Origin: a virus
IMG/VR virus record: IMGVR_UViG_3300017613_000413
Location: 1-31,915 of that record
DNA: 31,915 bases
Strand: one strand, 5' to 3'
How positions within the stretch are numbered: position 1 is the first letter of the stretch; the number at the start of each line of letters is the position of its first letter. Below, in pieces: positions 7,275-30,600 of the stretch. Under the pieces are notes generated by a model that saw nothing but the letters and a program-made list of their open reading frames with translations, was not told where the DNA came from and did no database searches. The position numbers and the translations under genes are program-made.

Positions 7275-8240
7275 TTATCCGTTTTCTCTCTTGCGAAGTA
7301 TCCAGTGAACTGCCCCTTTGATATCATCCCGAATTTTAGTCTTCCAGAGATAGGCAGCCCCTTTGGCTGTATAGCCTTTATAGGGTAGTTTAGAGGCAAC
7401 ATACGGCAACCACCACGCAGAATCGAAGGCGGTTAAGTTGCTCGTATCGGTAGGTAGTCTTAATAAGTGTTTGGGAGTCTTAGCACTCTCCATATAAAAC
7501 CATAGGTTCCAGAAATCATCTCGACTGATGTTATACTTCTCAGCCGAATGCTTCATAAATATTCCTAACGCAATCTGACCTGCCTGGGTGTGCTTGTCAA
7601 AGGCATACCATGGCAGCTCAACGGTTCGGACCTTACTCCGTCCGTTATCCTTCTTCCACTTTTTAGCATTTGCCTTTACATCGGCCTTGACTTTCTTCTT
7701 ATCAAGTCCCCGGTAAAATAGCAATACCATAGCAGATACGCAGAAGATACGATCTCCCCGGCCTCCCATCTTTGTTTTCCGTAGGAGAGCATCCGCGCCC
7801 TTCCGCTCATACTCACTGTGCCAAGGATAGACCCTATGCATCTCGTCAGCTAAGCCAATAAAATCCCCGTCCACAGCTCTACTTCTCCACATCTCCATCT
7901 CGTCAAATTCCTTGTGGTCTTTCCGGTACTCGACATCATTATGAACTATTCCCCATAAGCCCACGGCATCCTTCGACTTAGTAGCAAGGCACAATGCATA
8001 AATATGTTTTCTCCACTCCTCTTTATCTTTTGATTTTGATTCTATTAATTCTCCATGCTCGCCTATCAGTTGCCAGGCCTCTTCAGCCACCAGGATCGTT
8101 GACCTCCAAATCAACCAATCCCTCTGCTTCTTTTCTTCCCACAACGTCTCAAAGCAAGTATGCACGAGATCCAAATCTCCCCGGCGAATCGCTTTTTGAA
8201 TACCACTGCGACAGCCATATAAATGATCTTCAGAATTCAT
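7275..8240 (-). CDS. RarA/MgsA C-terminal-domain-like protein, copy 1
   Basis: 321 aa. The N-terminal ~100 residues resemble the C-terminal (collar-like) region of the clamp-loader relative RarA/MgsA: S-G-I-Q-K-A-I-R-R-G-D corresponds to S-x3-K-S-I-R in RarA, W-R-S-T-I-L-V-A-E-E-A-W to A-R-R-x4-A-S-E-D-V-G, and L-C-L-A-T-K-S-K-D-A-V to L-A-x-A-P-K-S-N-A-V. A later L-P-W-Y-A-F-D-K-H-T-Q-A-G segment is shared with the paralogue at 9926-10912. There is no AAA+ module (no Walker A), so this would be a stand-alone collar or tetramerisation domain. A role in replisome or fork handling follows only from the RarA comparison. The two copies are about three quarters identical by eye over the first ~95 residues and diverge more later. 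Confidence 0.6.
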   Translation of the reverse strand: MNSEDHLYGCRSGIQKAIRRGDLDLVHTCFETLWEEKKQRDWLIWRSTILVAEEAWQLIGEHGELIESKSKDKEEWRKHIYALCLATKSKDAVGLWGIVHNDVEYRKDHKEFDEMEMWRSRAVDGDFIGLADEMHRVYPWHSEYERKGADALLRKTKMGGRGDRIFCVSAMVLLFYRGLDKKKVKADVKANAKKWKKDNGRSKVRTVELPWYAFDKHTQAGQIALGIFMKHSAEKYNISRDDFWNLWFYMESAKTPKHLLRLPTDTSNLTAFDSAWWLPYVASKLPYKGYTAKGAAYLWKTKIRDDIKGAVHWILRKRENG

Positions 8241-9134: not shown

Positions 9135-9611
9135 TTACGAAGACAGAATATAATGAAGAGTCCCCTTCGATGAAATATTAAATCTCTCCATCGTCTTCTT
9201 GTATGATTTACATTTCCGATGAAACTCACGAATCTCCTCCCTCTCCTTGTCATTGAATCTACGCATGCGGGATGAAGCATGCTTTGCATGAGCCTTTCTG
9301 CTCTCAGGCGTTCGATCCATAATATTCTCGTGGCGAGTTCCTATTAGAATATTCTCATACGAATCGTCAGTTGAATTTCCGTTCCTGTGTCGAACTTCTT
9401 GCCCCTCCTCAAATAAGGCCTCCCCGAATTTTTGATACGCCTGTAACCGAGCAACAGTAATCGTTAGGGTGCGACCTTCGTGCTTTACTCCAAAGGTCCG
9501 ATATCCCTTTGGTCCAATTCGAGCCGACATCTTATTCCCATAATGCGAGAAGACTCTGCCGTCCTCTTTAACCCGATACCCTTTAAGCCAAGCTATCTTT
9601 GCTCTGTCCAT
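9135..9611 (-). CDS. HNH endonuclease with C-terminal helix-turn-helix
   Basis: 158 aa. The N-terminal ~60 residues are a beta-rich NUMOD4-like module (W-L-K-G-Y-R-V-K-E-D-G-R-V-F-S) with a G-P-K-G-Y-R-T-F segment. The HNH core reads E-V-R-H-R-N-G-N-S-T-D-D-S-Y-E-N-I-L-I-G-T-R-H-E-N-I (first His, Asn and second His/Asn in the usual spacing). The C-terminal ~40 residues (E-R-E-E-I-R-E-F-H-R then S-Y-K-K-T-M-E-R-F-N-I-S) look like a DNA-reading helix-turn-helix. This is the structure of free-standing phage homing endonucleases, which cut at sites lacking the element. It sits next to tRNA debris and a tandem repeat, consistent with past mobility. RBS AAAGGAGGTAA before ATG 9611. Confidence 0.8.
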   Translation of the reverse strand: MDRAKIAWLKGYRVKEDGRVFSHYGNKMSARIGPKGYRTFGVKHEGRTLTITVARLQAYQKFGEALFEEGQEVRHRNGNSTDDSYENILIGTRHENIMDRTPESRKAHAKHASSRMRRFNDKEREEIREFHRKCKSYKKTMERFNISSKGTLHYILSS

Positions 9612-9846: not shown

Positions 9847-9924
9847 TGGTGTCCGCAGTGGGACTCGAACCCACGTTGCGGGAGTGAAAGTCCCGTATCC
9901 TTTGCCTGTTTGGACTATGCGGAC
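9847..9924 (-). tRNA. tRNA-Glu (anticodon TTC)
   Basis: Acceptor GTCCGCA/TGCGGAC (7 bp), D stem GTCC/GGAT (one G-U), anticodon stem CGGGA/TCCCG with loop CTTTCAC (anticodon TTC), T arm GTGGG-TTCGAGT-CCCAC, discriminator A and an encoded CCA. It lies 1 nt after the stop of the second RarA-like gene, so it is probably cut out of the same operon transcript. Confidence 0.93.
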
Positions 9925-9925
9925 A

Positions 9926-10912
9926 TTACTCATTACTTTCTCTCTTTTCCAAGATCCAATTGACCGCCCCTTTAATGTCCTCTCTCACCTGCTCTTTCCA
10001 TAGCCTGGCCGCCTCCTTTGCAGTATGACCGGGGATATTAAGCCTAAATCCCACGTAAGGCAGCCACCAGACCGAATCAAAGGCTGTTAGACTCCATTCA
10101 GTAGGCGGCAACCGGATAAGATGTTTGGGCACCTTCGCGCTCTCCATGAAGAACCATAGAGACCTAAAAGAGAGTTCGTCCAGGCCATACTTCTCGCCTC
10201 CCTGTTTCATAAAGATATTGAAAGCGATCTTTCCGGCTTGAGTATGCATATCAAAGGCATACCAAGGCAGATCCACGATCCGTGGTTTACTCCTCCCGGT
10301 CTCCTTTTTCCACAGCATAGCATTTGCCTTCACGTCTGCGTCTACCTCCTTCTTATCCAAGCCTCGCATGGATAACAGGAGCAGAGAAGTTAAGCAGATC
10401 AATCGATCTCCCATCATGCCGCCCATCTTCGTCCGCCTCAGTAGGACATCCGTTGCCTCTTTTTCGTAATCACTCATTTTCCGTGATCTACGGCAAGTCT
10501 CGTGCAGATCTTCCGCCACAAGCAAATAGGCATCCGGCTTCGTGCCATTGCACATGCCTCGCCAAAGCATTAACTCGTCAAATTCAGGATGTGCCGGATA
10601 CTTCTGCATCTCATCTGCCATGCCCCAGAGACCCACAGCATCTTTCGACTTTGTGGCGAAGCATAACCGGTATATGAATTTCCTCCAGTCCTCTTTGTCT
10701 TTCGATTGTGTTAAAAACAGTTGACCGAGTTCACCGATCATTTGCCAGGCTTCCTCAGTCGCCAAAGTCGTCGCCCTCCAGAATAACCAATTCCTTTGAC
10801 TCTTCTCCGCCCAGAGAGTCTCAAAGCAAGTATGGACTAAATCAAGATCCCCGCGCCTGATTCCTTTTTGGATTCCACTGCGACATCCGTAGACGAAATC
10901 AGTATCATTCAC
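9926..10912 (-). CDS. RarA/MgsA C-terminal-domain-like protein, copy 2
   Basis: 328 aa, GTG start at 10912 with GAGGAGGAGTAAAC upstream. Same architecture as the protein at 7275-8240: S-G-I-Q-K-G-I-R-R-G-D-L-D-L, W-R-A-T-T-L-A-T-E-E-A-W, F-A-T-K-S-K-D-A-V, then P-W-Y-A-F-D-M-H-T-Q-A-G, and a shared ending with W-W-L-P-Y-V and D-I-K-G-A-V-N-W-I-L. It has no Walker A or B, so it is an ATPase-less collar-like domain. The N-terminal third is far better conserved between copies than the middle, so the middle is likely the specialised part. The copies may form a hetero-oligomer or serve different partners (inference). Confidence 0.6.
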   Translation of the reverse strand: MNDTDFVYGCRSGIQKGIRRGDLDLVHTCFETLWAEKSQRNWLFWRATTLATEEAWQMIGELGQLFLTQSKDKEDWRKFIYRLCFATKSKDAVGLWGMADEMQKYPAHPEFDELMLWRGMCNGTKPDAYLLVAEDLHETCRRSRKMSDYEKEATDVLLRRTKMGGMMGDRLICLTSLLLLSMRGLDKKEVDADVKANAMLWKKETGRSKPRIVDLPWYAFDMHTQAGKIAFNIFMKQGGEKYGLDELSFRSLWFFMESAKVPKHLIRLPPTEWSLTAFDSVWWLPYVGFRLNIPGHTAKEAARLWKEQVREDIKGAVNWILEKRESNE

Positions 10913-15095: not shown

Positions 15096-17780
15096 CTATC
15101 CGAGTAAACCTTTCAATCTCGCCTGTAACTTATCCATGGTATAAGGCTTCTGAAGGAATCCGGCCAGGCCTCTCCCTACAAATTTCTGGGTGGCGTCCTG
15201 CTCATTATAGCCACTGCAAAGAACTATCGGGGTGTTAGGTCTCAAGGATCTAATTTCCTGGAAAACTTCGAGACCGTCCATGCGCGGCATAGTAAGATCC
15301 AGTAGCACACAGACGATATCGTCCATGTTCTCCTTAAATACCTTCACTGCCTCTTTACCATCATAAGCAGTTATACCCTCAAAACCGAGAAGCTCTATCA
15401 TCCGCTTGCCTACCATAGCCACGGCCTTCTCGTCGTCAGCAATTAAGATTAATCCACTACCTTTCCAATCATCTACCCCTTCTTCTTCCTCATGCCTGAT
15501 CATCTCTCTATCGGGCATTACGTTTGCCGGAAAGTAAATTTTAAAGGTAGTGCCTCGATCTACTTCACTGTAGATCTTGATTGCTCCTTGATGCCCTCTC
15601 ACAATGCCAAGAACCGCAGACATGCCTAATCCTCGTCCGGTAAACTTCGTTGTAAAGAAGGGATCAAATATCTTCTCCTTAGTATCTTGACTCATGCCAC
15701 AACCAGTATCTGCCACCTCGACAAAGACATAATCTCCAGGCTTCAAAGGCTCTTCCAGGCTTGCTTTTAAAACTTCATTGACACATTCCAGATATTCGGC
15801 ATCGCAATACATCGACCCCGTTGTCAAAGTAATCACACCAGACTCTTCCAATAATGACTCCGATGCATTGGTGATCAAATTCATAATTACTTGTCGGATC
15901 TGAGTGACATCCCCGTCAAAGGTCGGCGTGTTCTTTTCAAAGTTCCGGCGAAGGGTTGCCTTCTTTGAGATCGAAACCTCAAGTAAATGAGATGTCTCTT
16001 TGATAAGTTCCCCCAGATGAATCGGCTCAACTATGAAGCGCCCCTTCCCCGAGTAGGCAAGCATTTGCTTAGCCAAGTCAGCCGCTCGAACCGAAGCATT
16101 AATTACTTCCTCGATATTACTGCGCGAAGGTGCCAAAGGTGCCAATAATTTTAATGCCAGATCTGCGTTGCCTAAAATTGCCATTAGGATATTATTAAAG
16201 TCGTGTGCTATACCTCCGGCCAGCACTCCCAAACTCTCCAGCTTTTGAGCGTGCAGCATTTGCCTTTCCAAGGTTAACTTTTCCTGCTCTGCCTGTTTTC
16301 TCTCTGTGATATCCCGAATGAGTACCAGGTCCGCTGGCTCGCCCTCATACTGGATCATTGCGGCTGAAGTTTCACAAGGTATGACGCTGCCATCTTTGGC
16401 TATAAGATCAACTTGAAAGTCTTTCGTCATATCCTCTACGCCATTAATCCTATCATCGTATCTCTTTTGTACTTTCGCCTTATCAGCTTCATTGACAAGA
16501 TCGCCAAACATTAACCCACCGACTGCCTCTTCTTGAGTGTATCCGAACAACTTGGTAAACGCCGGACTCACCATCTTATACCCTCCCTCCTGGAGGACCA
16601 CAATGGCGTCAGGACTTAATCCGACAACTTCTCCGTATTTCTCCTCACTTCGATCCAGTTTCTCGCTTATCCGTTTCCGCCGCCCGATGTTAAAATAGAG
16701 CAACGCTATTGCTGTGACCAGCACTGCCCCGACCGCAATGACTCCCGCGATCTCCCATTTATGCTCCCTATACATATTTCTGGGAATGTCACCAATAATA
16801 CTGTCTTCCGGCAACTCGTCAAAGTCAATGCCATATCGTTTCAGTTGCCGATAGTCAAACATATACTTAGCCGTGGTAGTGTCCACAATAGGGATATCTT
16901 CTGGCTTTTCTCCGTCCAAAATGAGAACCGCCATTTCCGCAGCCTTCTTGCCATGATGAAAACCACTCAACAACTTTCCGCCGATCGTGCCGTACTCCAG
17001 AACTTGAGCATGAAAGGTATAGAGAGGTCTCTTACTCTCTTGAGATATCCTGGTAACCCCTTCCTCTAAGGAAACGTACCGGCCCGTACTGTCCCTGTAT
17101 AAAGTCATAAAAACTGCGACCGTGTTCTCCCAGAGACCCCTCATTCTTTCCTCAATCTGCTCCATAGTGAGAGTGTCATCCCACCGGCTAAAGGAAACTC
17201 CACGATTAATATAATCTGTAAGTAATGGCTCTAACTGATTATACTGATAACTGCCCGAAGGGGTTCGATCCGCAATGAGCACAATCTTATTCGTATTCGG
17301 ATGCAAGTCAAGTATCAAATTAAGGGTGCCTCTAAATCCTGAAATCTCCAGGACTCCAGTAACCCGTTTTCTATCTACTTTCGCCTCAGCGTTGAGATCA
17401 TTCACTCCAGCAAATACTACTGGGACGCCCTGGAGCACCTCCTCGTGTTCCTGATGCGAAATAACAAAATCAAGAGCATTGTCGTCGGTAGTAATAATCA
17501 CATCAAATTCTTTGTCGCCATACTTATAGCGATACAGCTCGCAAAGCATCTCCTGATACGCCCTATCGTATTTGACTACCTTAGAATCCATGTACTCTAC
17601 CTGAATGTGAGAATCAATTCCTTCGTCTTTGAAGGTCGCCTCAACGCCTCGTACTATGTTGTCAGTCCACTGAAATCCCTTATGATACGAATTTAAGATA
17701 AGAATATTCTTATCCGCATGCTGGCCCTCACTCCACGAGAACGGGAACAAGAGAATTAATATTATAATCAATAACTTCAA
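15096..17780 (-). CDS. Hybrid sensor histidine kinase (periplasmic-binding, PAS, HisKA, HATPase, receiver)
   Basis: 894 aa, TTG start with AGGAGGTATAAG upstream. Order: signal peptide (1-19), ABC-substrate-binding-like periplasmic domain (~24-330; I-L-I-L-N-S-Y, D-V-I-I-T-T-D-D-N-A, G-V-P-V-V-F-A-G-V-N), TM helix (~343-365), PAS (~376-495, ending I-R-D-I-T-E-R-K), HisKA with G-G-I-A-H-D-F-N-N-I-L (His 526), HATPase with N-box N-L-I-T-N-A-S-E (634-641), G1 D-T-G-C-G-M (691-696) and G-R-G-L-G-M, then a receiver with D-D-E (782-784), Asp 828 as phosphoacceptor, Ser 856 and Lys 878. All catalytic residues are present. Proteins of this layout are common in Desulfobacterota and some other proteobacteria. 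No output domain or partner regulator is nearby. It is co-directional and tightly spaced with phage genes, so it is a cargo gene rather than a flanking host gene. Confidence 0.9.
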   Translation of the reverse strand: MKLLIIILILLFPFSWSEGQHADKNILILNSYHKGFQWTDNIVRGVEATFKDEGIDSHIQVEYMDSKVVKYDRAYQEMLCELYRYKYGDKEFDVIITTDDNALDFVISHQEHEEVLQGVPVVFAGVNDLNAEAKVDRKRVTGVLEISGFRGTLNLILDLHPNTNKIVLIADRTPSGSYQYNQLEPLLTDYINRGVSFSRWDDTLTMEQIEERMRGLWENTVAVFMTLYRDSTGRYVSLEEGVTRISQESKRPLYTFHAQVLEYGTIGGKLLSGFHHGKKAAEMAVLILDGEKPEDIPIVDTTTAKYMFDYRQLKRYGIDFDELPEDSIIGDIPRNMYREHKWEIAGVIAVGAVLVTAIALLYFNIGRRKRISEKLDRSEEKYGEVVGLSPDAIVVLQEGGYKMVSPAFTKLFGYTQEEAVGGLMFGDLVNEADKAKVQKRYDDRINGVEDMTKDFQVDLIAKDGSVIPCETSAAMIQYEGEPADLVLIRDITERKQAEQEKLTLERQMLHAQKLESLGVLAGGIAHDFNNILMAILGNADLALKLLAPLAPSRSNIEEVINASVRAADLAKQMLAYSGKGRFIVEPIHLGELIKETSHLLEVSISKKATLRRNFEKNTPTFDGDVTQIRQVIMNLITNASESLLEESGVITLTTGSMYCDAEYLECVNEVLKASLEEPLKPGDYVFVEVADTGCGMSQDTKEKIFDPFFTTKFTGRGLGMSAVLGIVRGHQGAIKIYSEVDRGTTFKIYFPANVMPDREMIRHEEEEGVDDWKGSGLILIADDEKAVAMVGKRMIELLGFEGITAYDGKEAVKVFKENMDDIVCVLLDLTMPRMDGLEVFQEIRSLRPNTPIVLCSGYNEQDATQKFVGRGLAGFLQKPYTMDKLQARLKGLLG

Positions 17781-20156: not shown

Positions 20157-21284
20157 CTACGTCTCCTCGCCCTTCAATCTCATTTTCGCTCTGCGAATTA
20201 TTTCAGCCTGTGCCCTATGGTACTCGTCAGGCAACTTCCGCCACATTGACTTGATTTGATCAAGACGTTTAGCCTTGACATTAAATACTTTCCAGCCTTG
20301 ACTTCCGTTCTTCTTTACGATTCCGTACTCTCGTGCATAATTCAGAACCGTGCCGAAGTCGTAAATCTGACCCTTCCGGCAATCAACATCCGCAACGTCC
20401 GTGCGGAGTCTGACAAACTCGCCAGTCCCGGCAAGCGTCAGGCATTTTTCCTTTTTAATAGCGAATGCGTGTCTGGCGGCAAGATCCCCCTTTGTTTCTT
20501 TAAAGATTTTATCTTGATCTGTCAAGGCTTTCTTTATAACCCGAATCAAAAGTGAGAACTCATGCTTTAGTGCGTGACCCCCTGACATGGTTTCTGGAGA
20601 TCCGAATTTCTGACCGATCTTGGATCTCATTTGATTAACCATGATGACGGCGCAGGGGTGCCCCCGTTTCCTTTGCCTAATAAGTTGCTGTTTCAACTTC
20701 CGAACCATCCGCCCAATCAATCTCGCTTGCAAGGCGTAGAAATCATCCTCTGCTGGCTTATCCATTTCCTCTTCAGGTGTGATCGCTGCCAGAGAATCGA
20801 TAACCAGTAGGCCGCAATCGTCAGCTCTCAGGACCGAGTCCGCAATGTTAGCATATTGCTGCCCATAATCTGCCAGAACTACATGGTATCGTTCAGGATT
20901 TGCACCGATATCCGCAACCCAGGATCTGTCTAACGTCCCCTCGGCATCCAACCAAACAGTATCCATTAATAATGACTTTTGACTGCAATCACAATATCTT
21001 AGCAGTTTGAAACATTGCCAGCAAATATTTTGACTGGCTGCCATGGCATTAGCTCCTAAGCTCGACTTGCCGCCGCTTTCTGGACCCCATAAACCGACAC
21101 TGCCCCACTGGGGAACTCCGCCTCCAGTGGCAAAGTCTAAAGAGAAAACCCCGAAGGGTATTCGAGGCGGATCTTTCGGGAGGCCGGACCCTTTGAACAT
21201 AGTCCCGGCTCCACAACTTTTATTTGTAGCATCTACTAAGTCACTCAATAAAGTAGGTGCCTTCTCTTTCTTCTTTTCAGCCAT
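20157..21284 (-). CDS. RecA-like recombinase with zinc-knuckle insertion
   Basis: 375 aa. Walker A G-P-E-S-G-G-K-S-S (67-75), D-A-E-G-T (113-117, catalytic Glu 115), Walker B L-L-V-I-D-S (159-164) and V-N-Q-M-R (216-220, the Gln switch) are all present. The order and the G-G-G-V-P lead-in fit RecA/UvsX recombinases. The unusual part is C-W-Q-C-x6-C-D-C at 88-100, between Walker A and the catalytic Glu, which looks like a zinc-binding insertion. The C-terminal basic domain is shortened relative to E. coli RecA. It would drive strand exchange with the Cas4-like nuclease, UvsW-like helicase and RuvC. Confidence 0.85.
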   Translation of the reverse strand: MAEKKKEKAPTLLSDLVDATNKSCGAGTMFKGSGLPKDPPRIPFGVFSLDFATGGGVPQWGSVGLWGPESGGKSSLGANAMAASQNICWQCFKLLRYCDCSQKSLLMDTVWLDAEGTLDRSWVADIGANPERYHVVLADYGQQYANIADSVLRADDCGLLVIDSLAAITPEEEMDKPAEDDFYALQARLIGRMVRKLKQQLIRQRKRGHPCAVIMVNQMRSKIGQKFGSPETMSGGHALKHEFSLLIRVIKKALTDQDKIFKETKGDLAARHAFAIKKEKCLTLAGTGEFVRLRTDVADVDCRKGQIYDFGTVLNYAREYGIVKKNGSQGWKVFNVKAKRLDQIKSMWRKLPDEYHRAQAEIIRRAKMRLKGEET

Positions 21285-22269: not shown

Positions 22270-22574
22270 TCTTCTTCCTCTCCACCTGTGATTCTATCGG
22301 CCTCCCGATCAATAAGTTTATCACATAACTGCCGGACCATTTCATAAGTCTCCACAAGCTCCTCTTTGTAGCATGGCATCGACAGCATAACATCAACCCG
22401 AGCCGAACCATACTCTTGAGTCGGTATGGTTAAGCCATATTTAACTGACACGTTCGCAGTTGCAGTAATGAATGGCCGGACCTTGATCTTCTTATTCCGG
22501 CGCTTTTGATTGCCAATTACTGTACTACTAACTTCCACGAAGCCTTGTCTCTCTGATATATTAGTTTTAGGCAC
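22266..22574 (-). CDS. Conserved beta-rich phage protein (102 aa)
   Basis: GTG start at 22574. Core: P-F-I-T-A-T-A-N-V-S-V-K-Y-G-L-T-I-P-T, then S-A-R-V-D-V-M-L-S-M-P-C, then a helix V-E-T-Y-E-M-V-R-Q-L. A pattern of T-I-P-T-x-E-Y-x2-x-R-V-D-V followed by a helix occurs in other phage replication clusters, but I know no function. Acidic end G-G-E-E-E-D. Confidence 0.6.
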   Translation of the reverse strand: MPKTNISERQGFVEVSSTVIGNQKRRNKKIKVRPFITATANVSVKYGLTIPTQEYGSARVDVMLSMPCYKEELVETYEMVRQLCDKLIDREADRITGGEEED

Positions 22575-23016
22575 ATTTCCTCCATTCTTTCTTAGCGAGT
22601 GCTGTCATTTCTTTGAGTGATATCACTTTATCGTCTACTTCCATGAATAAAGATCCTAATAAGTTCATCTGTTCGATAGTATAGAGACGCCAGCCCCGAG
22701 TGCTAAAGTAGGTGGCCTCCGGCAATACTCCAAGAGCGTGATATCTTTGGATTGTATTTACTTTCCGATTGATTGCGTCAGAGAGATGTGAGATGGAGAA
22801 GTACTTTTTGCCTTTCTCATCGATAACCATAGTGGGATCAGTGGGAATATGCGTTCTCGCCCACCAGTCACGCCATCGTCTTTTGACCTCTTCCCGGTAT
22901 TCAGGATCTTCGGCATATTTCTGTTTACGCCTTTCTCTAATCTCATCCTTATGGCAATCGTAATAAATCTTGTGATACAACCTTCTGTCTTGAGGCTTAG
23001 CCTTTGCCTTTTCCAT
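22567..23016 (-). CDS. MerR-like HTH protein with basic N-terminal arm
   Basis: 149 aa. Residues ~70-125 read F-S-I-S-H-L-S-D-A-I-N-R-K-V-N-T-I-Q-R-Y-H-A-L-G-V-L-P, then R-G-W-R-L-Y-T, the helix-turn-helix and wing of MerR-type or excisionase-like DNA binders. The N-terminal ~60 residues are a basic helical arm (Y-Y-D-C-H-K-D-E-I-R-E-R-R-K-Q-K-Y). No effector domain follows, so it may be an excisionase-like or architectural factor. It sits 1 nt after the UvsW-like gene. Confidence 0.65.
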   Translation of the reverse strand: MEKAKAKPQDRRLYHKIYYDCHKDEIRERRKQKYAEDPEYREEVKRRWRDWWARTHIPTDPTMVIDEKGKKYFSISHLSDAINRKVNTIQRYHALGVLPEATYFSTRGWRLYTIEQMNLLGSLFMEVDDKVISLKEMTALAKKEWRKCA

Positions 23017-24390: not shown

Positions 24391-24500
24391 TAGATCCCTA
24401 ATCCTTTCTTATACCACGGCCAAATCCAAAGGTGCATTAAGATAAATCCGATTACTATCGAAGCCACTACGACTATCCAGGCCATTACTTTGTCACTCAT
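24390..24500 (-). CDS. 36-aa single-span membrane protein
   Basis: ATG 24500 with TTTGGAGGGAGT upstream; TAA at 24392-24390 overlaps the helicase ATG by one base. The product starts M-S-D-K-V-M-A-W-I-V-V-V-A-S-I-V-I-G, a hydrophobic span of about 20 residues, then H-L-W-I-W-P-W-Y-K-K with an aromatic belt and a basic end. It has a good RBS and a coupled stop, so it is likely real. Possible roles: small membrane regulator or superinfection factor; nothing fixes one. Confidence 0.7.
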   Translation of the reverse strand: MSDKVMAWIVVVASIVIGFILMHLWIWPWYKKGLGI

Positions 24501-24516
24501 ACTCCCTCCAAATTAA

Positions 24517-24777
24517 TGCCTGTGAGAACGGGCAGCCGCCAAGCAGAAGAAACGGCCACCCTTCGATAGTGGTTATGGACACTATCGCTCACAGGCAAGA
24601 TCGACAAGCGGACTTGAGCACTTAAACCATGCATTCACGTTCCGTCCTCCCAGGCAAAACGCCCCAAGTCACCCATTCCCTTCGCTTGCCAAATGGGACG
24701 GGTGGACTCCGCAACTTATACGGCCAGGTCGAAGCTGGCTCCCAGATAAGGTGCCGCAAGCCACTTTACCCGTCCCA
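24517..24777 (-). ncRNA. Novel structured RNA candidate with three domains
   Basis: This gap (24501-24781) has no protein frame of note. Domain B (84 nt, hairpin): TGGGACGGGT (24694-24703) with ACCCGTCCCA (24768-24777), plus inner CTTAT/ATAAG and GCCAG/CTGGC stems. Domain C: CAAGCG/CGCTTG (24605-24610/24683-24688) stacked on GACTTG/CAAGTC (24611-24616/24665-24670) with a 12-nt bulge. Domain A: a 10-bp stem, TGCCTGTGAG/CTCACAGGCA (24517-24526/24588-24597), closing a three-way junction with an 8-bp hairpin CGATAGTG/CACTATCG and a 9-bp hairpin (24530-24538/24553-24561) that needs two G-U pairs only the minus strand can form. CCCATT (24672-24677) can also pair with AATGGG (24692-24697), competing with domain B, so a switch is possible. 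It follows the ssDNA-binding gene. Confidence 0.65.
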
Positions 24778-24781
24778 ATTG

Positions 24782-25786: not shown

Positions 25787-25815
25787 AATATCATAGTAAG
25801 AACCCTTTGTCAAGC
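25787..25815 (-). promoter_or_regulatory. Promoter for the ssDNA-binding gene
   Basis: Minus strand TTGACA, 17 nt, TATTGA with the same preceding TGA as the element at 13880-13908. The -35 overlaps the end of the primase gene; the leader of about 45 nt carries AAAGGAGAAAT before ATG 25735. Confidence 0.75.
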
Positions 25816-26877
25816 CCTTTTATAAATATTTCTCATTACTCTGCGTAATTCCTCTTTACTCTCAAGTTCCCCGGCATCCTTACATTGCAGATCGTCCTTA
25901 TCCTTTCGGAATTTCGGATGCTTACGCCCGATCGTCCAATCAATCTCCTTAACTTTATGATCCTTCCCTACTCTTCCCTTGATTCTCCGATGTGCATGTG
26001 CCCCGGCTCGGTCGCTATCATAACCCAGGATTAAATTAGGAGACAGCATCAGCGTCCGTATCTGCGCCTCAGAGACCGAACTCGTGGCTGAAGCAATAAC
26101 ATTGTAAACTCCCAACGCGGCCAGCCGTAAAACATCAAGCTCAGCCTCCACGGCTATCACTGGTTTTCTCCAGTCTACCAACCACATCCCGAACCATACT
26201 CCGACATCTCTTAACTTTGGAAAGATCAACCGGGGGTATCCGGCCACCTTCGGACTAATCGTCCAGATACTCTTCTTTGCGATTGCCCTGGATCTCAATA
26301 GAAATGTATTTCTCTTCCGATCCGTCAAAGGAAAGACCACCGCGAGACTTTCAGGATCGTACCGGACCTTAAACATATTGACTATATGCTCAGGGATGAG
26401 TCGCTCAAACTCAAACCACCGGATACATCTCCTGGCTACCTCGTCCTTACTATCCTGGAGCAACTCGTATTTCCGCAGGACTTCATAAGGCAAGGGATTA
26501 ATAGCTTCCTCGTCAATTTCCAGATTCTCAAAGTGATCAGGCTTTCGAGGCTTCCTGTGCTCATCGTCTTCATAGTAATGGTTTTCTGTTAGCAGAAACA
26601 TCTTCGCCGCTTGCCATGGATATAGGCCGCCCATGACGAACATATTGTGTAACAAGCGGTCCAGCCGCTGACCCTCCGGCGTGCATCCAAAGCAGTAGTA
26701 ATAAGACAACTCGTCATTACTGACCCGAACCCCGAAGCTTGGTCTCGTATCTGCCCCTCCAGCATGTGTCCACGGAGCCATCGGGCACGGGCAGTTAACC
26801 CACGCCCCAGTTTTAACAATATCCCGGTAGTCAACCCCTAACGCCATTAGAAAACTGACAATGCTACCTTCTTGCAT
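25810..26877 (-). CDS. DNA primase (CHC2 zinc finger plus TOPRIM)
   Basis: 355 aa. Zinc site: Cys 29, Cys 31, His 38, Cys 62, Cys 65 (C-P-C-P...W-T-H...Y-Y-C-F-G-C). The P-S-F-G-V lead to the finger is typical of DnaG-type primases. TOPRIM: V-I-A-V-E-A-E-L-D-V-L (Glu 244/246) and L-I-L-G-Y-D-S-D-R-A-G (Asp 287/289). No helicase domain is fused, unlike T7 gp4; the helicase is the separate DnaB-type gene upstream. It makes lagging-strand RNA primers. The start overlaps the previous gene by 14 nt and the RBS (AGGTTTAAAA) is weak, so it is probably translated by coupling. Confidence 0.85.
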   Translation of the reverse strand: MQEGSIVSFLMALGVDYRDIVKTGAWVNCPCPMAPWTHAGGADTRPSFGVRVSNDELSYYYCFGCTPEGQRLDRLLHNMFVMGGLYPWQAAKMFLLTENHYYEDDEHRKPRKPDHFENLEIDEEAINPLPYEVLRKYELLQDSKDEVARRCIRWFEFERLIPEHIVNMFKVRYDPESLAVVFPLTDRKRNTFLLRSRAIAKKSIWTISPKVAGYPRLIFPKLRDVGVWFGMWLVDWRKPVIAVEAELDVLRLAALGVYNVIASATSSVSEAQIRTLMLSPNLILGYDSDRAGAHAHRRIKGRVGKDHKVKEIDWTIGRKHPKFRKDKDDLQCKDAGELESKEELRRVMRNIYKRA

Positions 26878-27301
26878 TTTTAAACCTAATTAATCTGACC
26901 TTCTGTTTAGGACTCATAGGCACTCTTACAGATTCCGTCTCTTTCTCTTTCGCCAATGCTTGCGTCGGCCAGATAGAAGTGGTGGTTCTGACAACTACCA
27001 GGAACCGATAGATTACTTCTTCTGTATCCGTCACTTTAGCCGTCACCGTCACGGAGTACGGAGACAAGTTAATCAAACCACCTTCGAGAGTAAACAGAAC
27101 TCGTGTCTTCTTTTCAACTGATACTAAACTCGCTCCCACCAACCCCGCTGGATTACCGGCATTGTCTTCAATTTCAACATGGACTCCCTTTGGTTCTATT
27201 TCTCCATAATTTGAAAAGTCAATCGCAATAGGCAGCCTTTCTTCAGGAACTTTGAATATTCTCTGGGAGTGTGTTTCAAGCCGGAACGTTCTGGTTGCCA
27301 T
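26864..27301 (-). CDS. Beta-sandwich-like protein with RLIRFK tail
   Basis: 145 aa from ATG 27301 (AAGGAGGTAACCGCT upstream). Alternating strands (R-T-F-R-L-E-T-H, V-H-V-E-I-E-D, R-V-L-F-T-L-E-G, T-V-T-A-K-V-T-D) suggest an Ig-like or similar beta sandwich; the N-terminal half is close to Big-type domains. A linker leads to P-K-Q-K-V-R-L-I-R-F-K-N-A-R-R. Codons for the tail differ from those of the copy at the end of the 380-856 gene, so the likeness is at protein level. The role between helicase and primase is unknown; a virion-type domain in this place is odd. Confidence 0.6.
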   Translation of the reverse strand: MATRTFRLETHSQRIFKVPEERLPIAIDFSNYGEIEPKGVHVEIEDNAGNPAGLVGASLVSVEKKTRVLFTLEGGLINLSPYSVTVTAKVTDTEEVIYRFLVVVRTTTSIWPTQALAKEKETESVRVPMSPKQKVRLIRFKNARR

Positions 27302-28553
27302 AGCGGTTACCTCCTTCGTCCTCTTTTTCAATCACAGAATCCTGTTCAATGATCATTCGATCCATATCGTAAAGTACTCGTATAGATCCGGTCTCTCCTT
27401 CTCGGCCTTTAAGCAGATCGAAGATCTTGTAATACCGATGCCTCCAGGAAACTTCCGGCTGGTAATTCTTATCATTCTTGATAGCAATCACGATCGAAGC
27501 CAACTGGCCTATAACATCCGAAAAGCCTATGTTGCCCAGGTCTCCCGGTCCCTTTCTATTGAACTGCCATGATCCGATCACAGGCACATTAAAGTCACGT
27601 GCGATCATTTTCTGAAACTCTGCAACCTCCGAGATCCTCTCCCACCGAGAACGGTGCCGACTCCTTGTCTGCATCAAATAAGCGCCATCGATATATACTA
27701 CCGTGGGTTTCAATTCCTGGATTCTCATTGCCAAGTCTTCAACAGTAGATCCCAGTTGGCCTTGCAAGAGATAGTACGGTCGCTCCCTCATTTCTGGGAG
27801 ATCCGAAGTCCTAACCTCCAGGTAATCTCTACCACGTGTAGATAGACGCCCCTTGCGTATCATGTCCGCAGTTATGTTTGACTTCAGCGCCATCGTCCGC
27901 CTGGCCCATTGACTTGTCAGCATCTCCATGGTAACCACCAAAGGCACATCTTCGTGATACAAGTACGAATGCAAGGCAATCATACCCATAATATATGACT
28001 TGCCGACTCCAGGCCGCCCAACCAGGGCAATGGTGTCTCCCGGCTGAGCGCCATCCGAAACTTCATCCAGGTACTCGATGCCAAAGGGAATGCCCTTCAT
28101 CATAGCTGAGTGCTGCCTGATATCGTGATCTTCCAGTACTCCGGCCACACTCGCCCCAAGAGTTGTTATTTGATCTCCGGCAGCTCGCTTCCCGACACTC
28201 ATTGCAATTGATTGCAATTTATCTACCGCGTCCGTCATCTCACCGTCCATTACAGACTTGGATACCTCCTCGTAACCGTCCAGAATCACGGCGGATAAAT
28301 ATCTCGTCTTGAGAGTATCAACCCAGTAACCTATAGGCTCATCCGGCAGACCTCTTATCTTGACATCTAACTCCGCCTCCACGGTACGGACCCGTGGCAT
28401 CCGTCCATGGCTGAGCACGTGATCGGCCATAAATTCATAGACTCGTGTCTCTTCTGGATTGAAGGCTTCCACCGGGATATCATTATCTCCCAGGAAAGAC
28501 ACGGGCCGGTTCTCTTCCATTATCTTTTGCAGTAATCCAAATCCAATGCTCAT
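27276..28553 (-). CDS. DnaB-like replicative DNA helicase
   Basis: 425 aa. The N-terminal ~110 residues are helical as in DnaB. The RecA-like motor has Walker A G-R-P-G-V-G-K-S (179-186), T-M-E-M (208-211, catalytic Glu 210), Walker B V-V-Y-I-D-G (285-290), and a final strand region with S-W-Q-F-N-R-K (328-334). The ring helicase would load at the candidate origin at 30273-30452. The palindrome at 28202-28217 encodes residues ~113-117 (L-Q-S-I-A), at the linker between the two domains. Confidence 0.85.
   Translation of the reverse strand: MSIGFGLLQKIMEENRPVSFLGDNDIPVEAFNPEETRVYEFMADHVLSHGRMPRVRTVEAELDVKIRGLPDEPIGYWVDTLKTRYLSAVILDGYEEVSKSVMDGEMTDAVDKLQSIAMSVGKRAAGDQITTLGASVAGVLEDHDIRQHSAMMKGIPFGIEYLDEVSDGAQPGDTIALVGRPGVGKSYIMGMIALHSYLYHEDVPLVVTMEMLTSQWARRTMALKSNITADMIRKGRLSTRGRDYLEVRTSDLPEMRERPYYLLQGQLGSTVEDLAMRIQELKPTVVYIDGAYLMQTRSRHRSRWERISEVAEFQKMIARDFNVPVIGSWQFNRKGPGDLGNIGFSDVIGQLASIVIAIKNDKNYQPEVSWRHRYYKIFDLLKGREGETGSIRVLYDMDRMIIEQDSVIEKEDEGGNRYGNQNVPA
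28202..28217. repeat. Palindromic site, copy 5 (TTGCAATTGATTGCAA)
   Basis: Core identical to copies 1, 2 and 4, flanked by A and T so that the arms extend to 8 bp (ATTGCAAT each side). In the coding sequence of the helicase linker; peptide L-Q-S-I-A also occurs at copy 1 in an unrelated protein. Confidence 0.85.
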
Positions 28554-30206: not shown

Positions 30207-30272
30207 CTTTCGTTTTCTCCCTTTCTTTATTCATCTCTGGTTTCCTTTTCTGTTTTAAAATCGAATCCCCCT

Positions 30273-30412
30273 GGCGGCCATTCTGCTTGCCGCCTCTTTT
30301 AGACTATGTTTATATGACTATATTTATAATACTATGTTATAGGGGGCAGGAATCATGCCGCCCAGGGGGCAGGAATCATGCCGGGGGGCGGCAGGAATCA
30401 TGCCGGTACCGG
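30273..30412. other. Candidate replication origin: AT-rich stretch plus three iterons
   Basis: In a 393-bp gap without genes (30207-30599), three direct copies of GGCAGGAATCATGCCG start at 30345, 30368 and 30390, 23 and 22 bp apart (about two helical turns). Each is itself an imperfect inverted repeat (GGCA...TGCC). The first two share a longer 19-bp form with GGGGG in front. A CCGGTACCGG palindrome (30403-30412) ends the array. To the left lies AT-rich DNA (30301-30341) that could melt, then an inverted repeat GGCGG...CCGCC (30274-30295). This matches iteron-type origins beside an initiator gene. Confidence 0.65.
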
Positions 30413-30434
30413 CAGCCCAAGTGCCACCCCTCTT

Positions 30435-30452
30435 TTTGCAATCGATTGCAAA
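30435..30452. repeat. Palindromic site, copy 6 (TTTGCAAT-CG-ATTGCAAA)
   Basis: A perfect 18-bp palindrome, the only copy with a CG centre. It lies between the iterons and the plus-strand TTGACA element, 8 bp upstream of that -35, so it may regulate the promoter or take part in origin control. Confidence 0.85.
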
Positions 30453-30460
30453 CTTTCTGC

Positions 30461-30489
30461 TTGACAAATGGAATTTACTTTGATATCGT
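30461..30489 (+). promoter_or_regulatory. Plus-strand promoter-like element
   Basis: TTGACA, 17 nt, TATCGT with TGA just before it; the same pattern as the two minus-strand promoters. It would transcribe away from the origin towards 30600. No convincing gene follows (only M-A-R-R-I-P-L-S-L... without an RBS), so the product may be a short RNA ending at the hairpin at 30571-30600, possibly a primer or antisense to the 59-aa gene. Confidence 0.55.
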
Positions 30490-30570
30490 GGTAGTTAACA
30501 TGGCGCGGAGAATTCCTCTATCTCTGATCTGGCCTCCAACTTGTCCTGCCAGAACCCATGTGCCGCCAAA

Positions 30571-30600
30571 GATCCCGAGTGATCCGCCATCGCTCGGGAT
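30571..30600. terminator. Hairpin at the end of the 59-aa gene
   Basis: Stem ATCCCGAG / CTCGGGAT (8 bp) around a 13-nt loop. On the minus strand it overlaps the stop of the 59-aa gene and is followed by a weak CTTTG, not a real T-run; on the plus strand it would close the short transcript from 30461. A bidirectional, weak terminator or RNA stabiliser. Confidence 0.5.

Follow-up and report, generated by a model that had tools for sequence, protein, structure and literature searches.

The stretch separating the genes for a gp32-like single-stranded DNA-binding protein (SSB) and a UvsW-like helicase in a 31.9-kb IMG/VR virus record (31,915 nucleotides, hereafter the window) is, on sequence comparison, an orphan structured RNA candidate: it belongs to no known family, no relatives of it were found and it appears lineage-specific. 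Folding models support a structured element, strongly in its 3′ domain (D3), moderately in D1 and weakly in D2. We tentatively read it as a cis-acting structured intercistronic element, i.e., a regulatory RNA of the replication operon mRNA; this is a plausible reading, although we hold it with somewhat less than even confidence.

The minus strand carries almost all genes of the window, and the element sits within a replication module (Table 1) whose core follows a conserved operon order, primase-SSB-helicase-HTH-RecA. The annotations of Rhodobacter phage RcDurkin, Agrobacterium phage JP1, Rhizobium phage P11VFA and Stenotrophomonas phage Summit show a closely similar order, and this match in four annotated phages indicates that the module is ordinary among large phages of Proteobacteria. 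The names that the original prediction gave to the flanking genes were borne out. The tblastn matches of the SSB are annotated SSBs from Rhodobacter and Agrobacterium phages (its relatives in RcDurkin and JP1 carry the annotation ssDNA-binding protein), and its gene encodes a complete acidic C-terminus, DIDIDDLI, with the stop codon at 24784-24782; the second neighbor gave a ResIII/UvsW-like match. Given minus-strand neighbors on both sides and a place inside a conserved operon order, the element very likely belongs to an mRNA. From SSB stop to helicase start there are 391 bp. The predicted gap of 281 bp is recovered (24501-24781), provided that a 36-aa ORF between the RNA element and the helicase, which had gone unlisted, is taken as coding.

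Table 1. Features of the element and of the replication module around it (positions in the window).
Feature	Positions	Strand	Remarks
DnaB-type helicase	27276-28553		Replication module
Toprim primase	25810-26877		Replication module
gp32-like ssDNA-binding protein (SSB), 317 aa	24782-25735	-	tblastn, PHROG 17226, alignment
Domain D1	24690-24781	-	Closing helix 13/14 bp; two near-equal inner folds
Competing pair CCCATT (24697-24692) / AATGGG (24677-24672)	24672-24697	-	Belongs to alternative fold opening D1 and D2
Domain D2	24603-24690	-	Helices GGCAAGCG/CGCTTGTC and GACTTG/CAAGTC; purine-rich bulge; support weak
45-aa ORF	ATG 24634 to TGA 24497	-	Spans D2-D3; ATGA overlap with 36-aa ORF; GGAGG upstream
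Domain D3	24517-24597	-	Closed three-way junction; 3′ domain of element
Shine-Dalgarno stretch of 36-aa ORF (TTGGAGGGAGT)	24501-24511	-	Partner of D2 3′ arm in minimum-energy fold including start codon
36-aa ORF	24391-24500	-	One hydrophobic membrane-span-like stretch, MSDKVMAWIVVVASIVIGFILMHLWIWPWYKKGLGI
UvsW/RAD25-like superfamily 2 helicase, 457 aa	23017-24390	-	Pfam ResIII 5e-19; PHROG 16
MerR-type HTH protein	22567-23016		Replication module
RecA-like recombinase	20157-21284		Replication module

The evidence for structure begins with two perfect 10-bp stems, which had been predicted and are both present: P1 of D1 (24777-24768 with 24703-24694) and P1 of D3 (24597-24588 with 24526-24517). 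When the 281 nt were dinucleotide-shuffled, a pair of such inverted repeats turned up in 0.02% of cases (P ~0.0002) and at least one in 1.3%. The closing helix of D1 (24781-24768 with 24703-24690) starts at the first base past the SSB stop. D3 consists of the perfect closing stem, an 8-bp hairpin, an AA linker, an 11-bp hairpin with a pyrimidine loop and a GTT linker; it has a folding z of -7.1 on the minus strand (-5.4 on the plus) and pair probabilities of 0.98-0.99, and it folds with or without downstream sequence. When the whole window was scanned in 90-nt windows at a step of 15 (some 2,100 windows on each strand), D3 was the most extreme for stability on either strand.

The remaining domains temper the picture. 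A three-way junction had been predicted; it is closed in D3, but in D1 it is not unique, a three-way form at -38.8 kcal/mol competing with a rod at -37.4 kcal/mol. The predicted bulged stem does exist, as D2, whose z lies near background (-1.7 minus, -1.4 plus). What stands of the three-domain structured RNA originally proposed is thus a structured element with D3 as its strongest part; D2 is near background, and D1 and D2 refold equally stably. The label “three-domain ncRNA” overreaches the evidence, whereas D3, going by the folding models, deserves that of structured RNA candidate.

The sole real structural evidence on strand is hairpin 2 of D3, and it agrees with gene direction. This hairpin was expected to pair on the minus strand only, through two G-U pairs; it is complete (11 pairs) only there, but the G-U pairs number four. 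On the plus strand they become A-C mismatches, so the hairpin is weakened rather than absent (3+4 pairs flanking a 2x2 internal loop). This completeness on one strand speaks against the element working as DNA, for instance as a replication origin or a single-strand structure, or being an insertion structured by chance, a reading that we consider very improbable. Its position among replication genes would suit a DNA-level role, and so would the statistics of the whole element, as unusual on both strands (z -3.2 minus, -3.1 plus), and of D1, which folds equally on the plus strand (-3.4, against -2.8 on the minus). However, a better origin-like region exists at 30290-30405, where three direct repeats lie beside an AT-rich stretch, and both the shuffles and the window scan make chance structure improbable for D3.

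In that other part of the window, the non-coding gap at 30207-30599 contains three 20-nt direct repeats at 30341-30405 (spacing 23 and 22; core GGCATGATTCCTGCC on the minus strand), adjoined by the AT-rich stretch at ~30290-30340, and from its sequence it looks like an origin or operator region.

The short ORF overlooked by the original prediction is central to the cis-acting reading. Its codon score (0.14 per codon) is within the coding range, no homologue of it was found, and its stop codon shares bases with the helicase ATG (TAATG). A strong Shine-Dalgarno with a GGAGGG core (TTGGAGGGAGTATG) precedes it, and D3 ends just 5′ of this site. With such an ORF lying between the RNA and the helicase, a cis-acting leader is at least as likely as a discrete RNA.

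When the start region of this ORF is added to the folded sequence, the minimum-energy fold switches: CCCAUU/AAUGGG forms and D1 and D2 open. The competing pair that had been pointed out is real, as part of a near-isoenergetic alternative fold in which the Shine-Dalgarno and AUG (24508-24495) are bound by the 3′ arm of D2 (24619-24606). The two folds, one leaving the Shine-Dalgarno free and the other pairing it, are about 2-5 kcal/mol apart, a difference over which energy models give no reliable ranking in 280 nt. The predicted unpaired probability of the Shine-Dalgarno is 0.04, versus 0.41 +/- 0.20 with D1 and D2 shuffled; 4% of these shuffles are as low (P ~0.04, for one of several features examined). 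The modeling is thus suggestive of Shine-Dalgarno occlusion by the alternative fold. Two other pairings were discounted. A kissing pair between the D3 loop UUCUUCU and GGAGGGA (-6.9 kcal/mol) is matched by 11% of random 13-mers, and the 10-bp match that links D3 hairpin 1 to the 36-aa ORF is of a kind too common within the window.

We picture the cis-acting control as follows. A ribosome leaving the SSB stop would run into a stably folded block, and the coupling of the helicase would have moved, via TAATG, to the new 36-aa ORF, which brings a Shine-Dalgarno of its own. With D1 and D2 closed, that Shine-Dalgarno would be free; formation of CCCAUU/AAUGGG would open both domains and allow the D2 3′ arm to mask the Shine-Dalgarno and AUG, and translation of the 36-aa ORF and the helicase would then be reduced. 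D3 would act as a constant folded module lying between switch and start. We infer that both folds would be used, and the trigger could be temperature, the passage of a ribosome or a protein, for instance SSB. Several observations run against the cis-acting reading: sequestration of the Shine-Dalgarno is only marginal, D2, central to the switch, barely beats its shuffles, so stable a domain as D3 has no obvious need in a regulatory leader, and the lack of homologues found means that covariation is lacking too.

The same stretch might instead code for protein, through the 45-aa ORF or another short gene, its structure being incidental; we regard this as very improbable. An ATGA overlap and an upstream GGAGG are typical features of phage genes. 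Nevertheless, the codon score of the 45-aa ORF (-0.06 per codon) is below the 5th percentile of the true genes of the window (-0.03) and within the off-frame range (mean -0.19, 95th percentile 0.00), the ORF has no homologue in the relatives, and the stability of D3 is unexpected for a coding stretch.

Family searches agreed with the original prediction that no named RNA family applies. Rfam 15, whose models include GOLLD, ROOL, HEARO, tRNAs, introns, ribozymes and riboswitches, gave no match in the element at gathering or relaxed thresholds: at the former only two tRNAs appeared, both elsewhere in the window, and at E<=5 only the TMV 3′UTR pseudoknot model (12.6 bits against 34 required, E 1.8). 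ARAGORN reported no tRNA or tmRNA in the element, which had likewise been described as unlike a tRNA. Blastn of the element, whole and in pieces, against phage and plasmid records returned only chance matches of 18-27 nt, and a covariance model built from the single sequence had no match in 12 related phage records or related loci. A scan of viral contigs with a D3 pattern found none, a weak negative given the strictness of the pattern (21 fixed bases). Relaxing it yielded a lone match in 84,980 bacterial genomes, in Nocardia, which we take as chance: it is a long hairpin, G+C-rich and terminator-like, and the similarity goes no further.

The protein neighbors allowed the locus to be followed further. 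Seven protein scans of viral contigs recovered distant relatives only, with helicase identities no higher than 51%, and none of these relatives carries the element. The four nearest contigs (L013, L012, L015 and L001; helicase identities 51%, 49%, 43% and 42%) have the SSB stop directly against the helicase start or overlapping it, with neither the RNA nor the 36-aa ORF between them, and this direct adjacency makes translational coupling probable there. Since both the C-terminal tail of the SSB and the N-terminus of the helicase are intact in the window, some 390 bp would have been inserted exactly between two genes. Judged by these alignments, RNA and 36-aa ORF together are a lineage-specific insertion of ~390 bp after the SSB stop; the element would have been gained after the split from the four relatives or lost in all four. 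In two more distant phages protein genes occupy the SSB-helicase gap, and the gap proteins resemble the insert in none of its frames. The module has a second insertion site in L013, where a 352-aa gene (1090-2148) lies between primase and SSB.

A stand-alone phage ncRNA, transcribed from its own promoter over the SSB stop or cut from the operon mRNA and acting in trans or bound to protein, seems to us rather unlikely, even though part of the evidence fits it. D3 is exceptionally stable irrespective of the downstream ORF, the G+C content of the element is above that of the window (0.55 vs 0.47), and a TATAAC at 24786-24781 with a -35-like GAGACA box 18 nt upstream would place a start at ~24776-24774, where P1 of D1 begins. 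ICP1 supplies a precedent for abundant phage ncRNAs without assigned role (PMC7567579). However, the promoter match (9/12 positions) is at background level: a scan gave 8 sites where 7.2 were expected, and the TATAAC site is not among them. No terminator follows D3, no homologue appeared across the collections searched, and cis elements directly 5′ of a Shine-Dalgarno would look alike. Antisense action has a model in the P1/P4-type leader RNAs, also short phage RNAs that can potentially pair with gene leaders (PMC7567579), but unlike them the element showed no outstanding complementarity when 37 gene leaders of the window were compared (best z -2.9).

Other known RNAs resemble the element in part. 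Large phage-borne ncRNAs such as GOLLD and ROOL are likewise structured, non-coding, without assigned role and found in phages, but they are much longer (PMC7567579 sets them beside an ~800-nt ICP1 transcript) and often near tRNAs, and they gave no Rfam match here. HEARO/omega and RAGATH-18-derived IscB/TnpB guide RNAs are also structured, a few hundred nt long and carried on mobile DNA; in contrast to HEARO, omega and reRNA guide RNAs, the element has SSB, the 36-aa ORF and the helicase as neighbors and no Rfam match, and the window proteins that were scanned include no IscB or TnpB. We think it decidedly unlikely that the element represents a new RNA class, a stand-alone RNA machine of ~260-280 nt from the SSB-helicase junction that might, e.g., bind SSB or a host factor and would have been gained recently together with the 36-aa membrane protein.

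The cis-acting reading has a precedent in the T4 gene 32 operator, a folded RNA through which gp32 represses its own mRNA (PMC535899). It is a ~28-nt pseudoknot with UUAAA/UAAA repeats in the 5′ leader, upstream of the SSB gene (PMC535899). Both lie in a replication operon beside the SSB gene and upstream of a ribosome binding site; unlike the operator, the element is 281 nt long and 3′ of the SSB stop, and a position downstream of SSB means that it is not the T4 gp32 operator. By analogy, SSB is a possible ligand of the element.

SSB is usually required in large amounts and a helicase in small, and this difference in demand would suit an mRNA processing and stability boundary: the folded block would shield the 3′ end of the abundant SSB message and set apart a low-level helicase message. 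The start of D1 at the first base past the SSB stop would fit, and a domain as stable as D3 could stop exonucleases. T4 offers a precedent: its gene 32 message combines exceptional stability with RNase E cleavage close to the stop codon (PMC3014915). We judge such a boundary unlikely nonetheless: one hairpin would be enough, so that 281 nt and three domains exceed the need, and the relatives do without the element.

Some features elsewhere in the window are recorded here in their own right. An 894-aa hybrid sensor kinase (15096-17780; ABC_sub_bind, PAS, HisKA, HATPase and response regulator) lies in the phage early region, and no phage record matches it over 80% of its length. Two clear paralogues of unassigned family (7275-8240 and 9926-10912), which share CRSGIQK, GLWG and WWLPY, flank the genes for an HNH homing endonuclease (9135-9611) and tRNA-Glu (9847-9924). 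An AAA+ ATPase at 12227-13831 matches the defence protein model IetA (PADLOC 1e-23) and PHROG 8638 (1e-121).

Finally, what the element would mean depends on the form in which it acts. As a discrete ncRNA, it would found a new family. As a regulatory RNA, the reading that we favor, it would indicate that this phage traded direct coupling of the SSB and helicase genes for RNA-based control via a single insertion, and it would add to the few cases beyond T4 of phage replication genes controlled by RNA.
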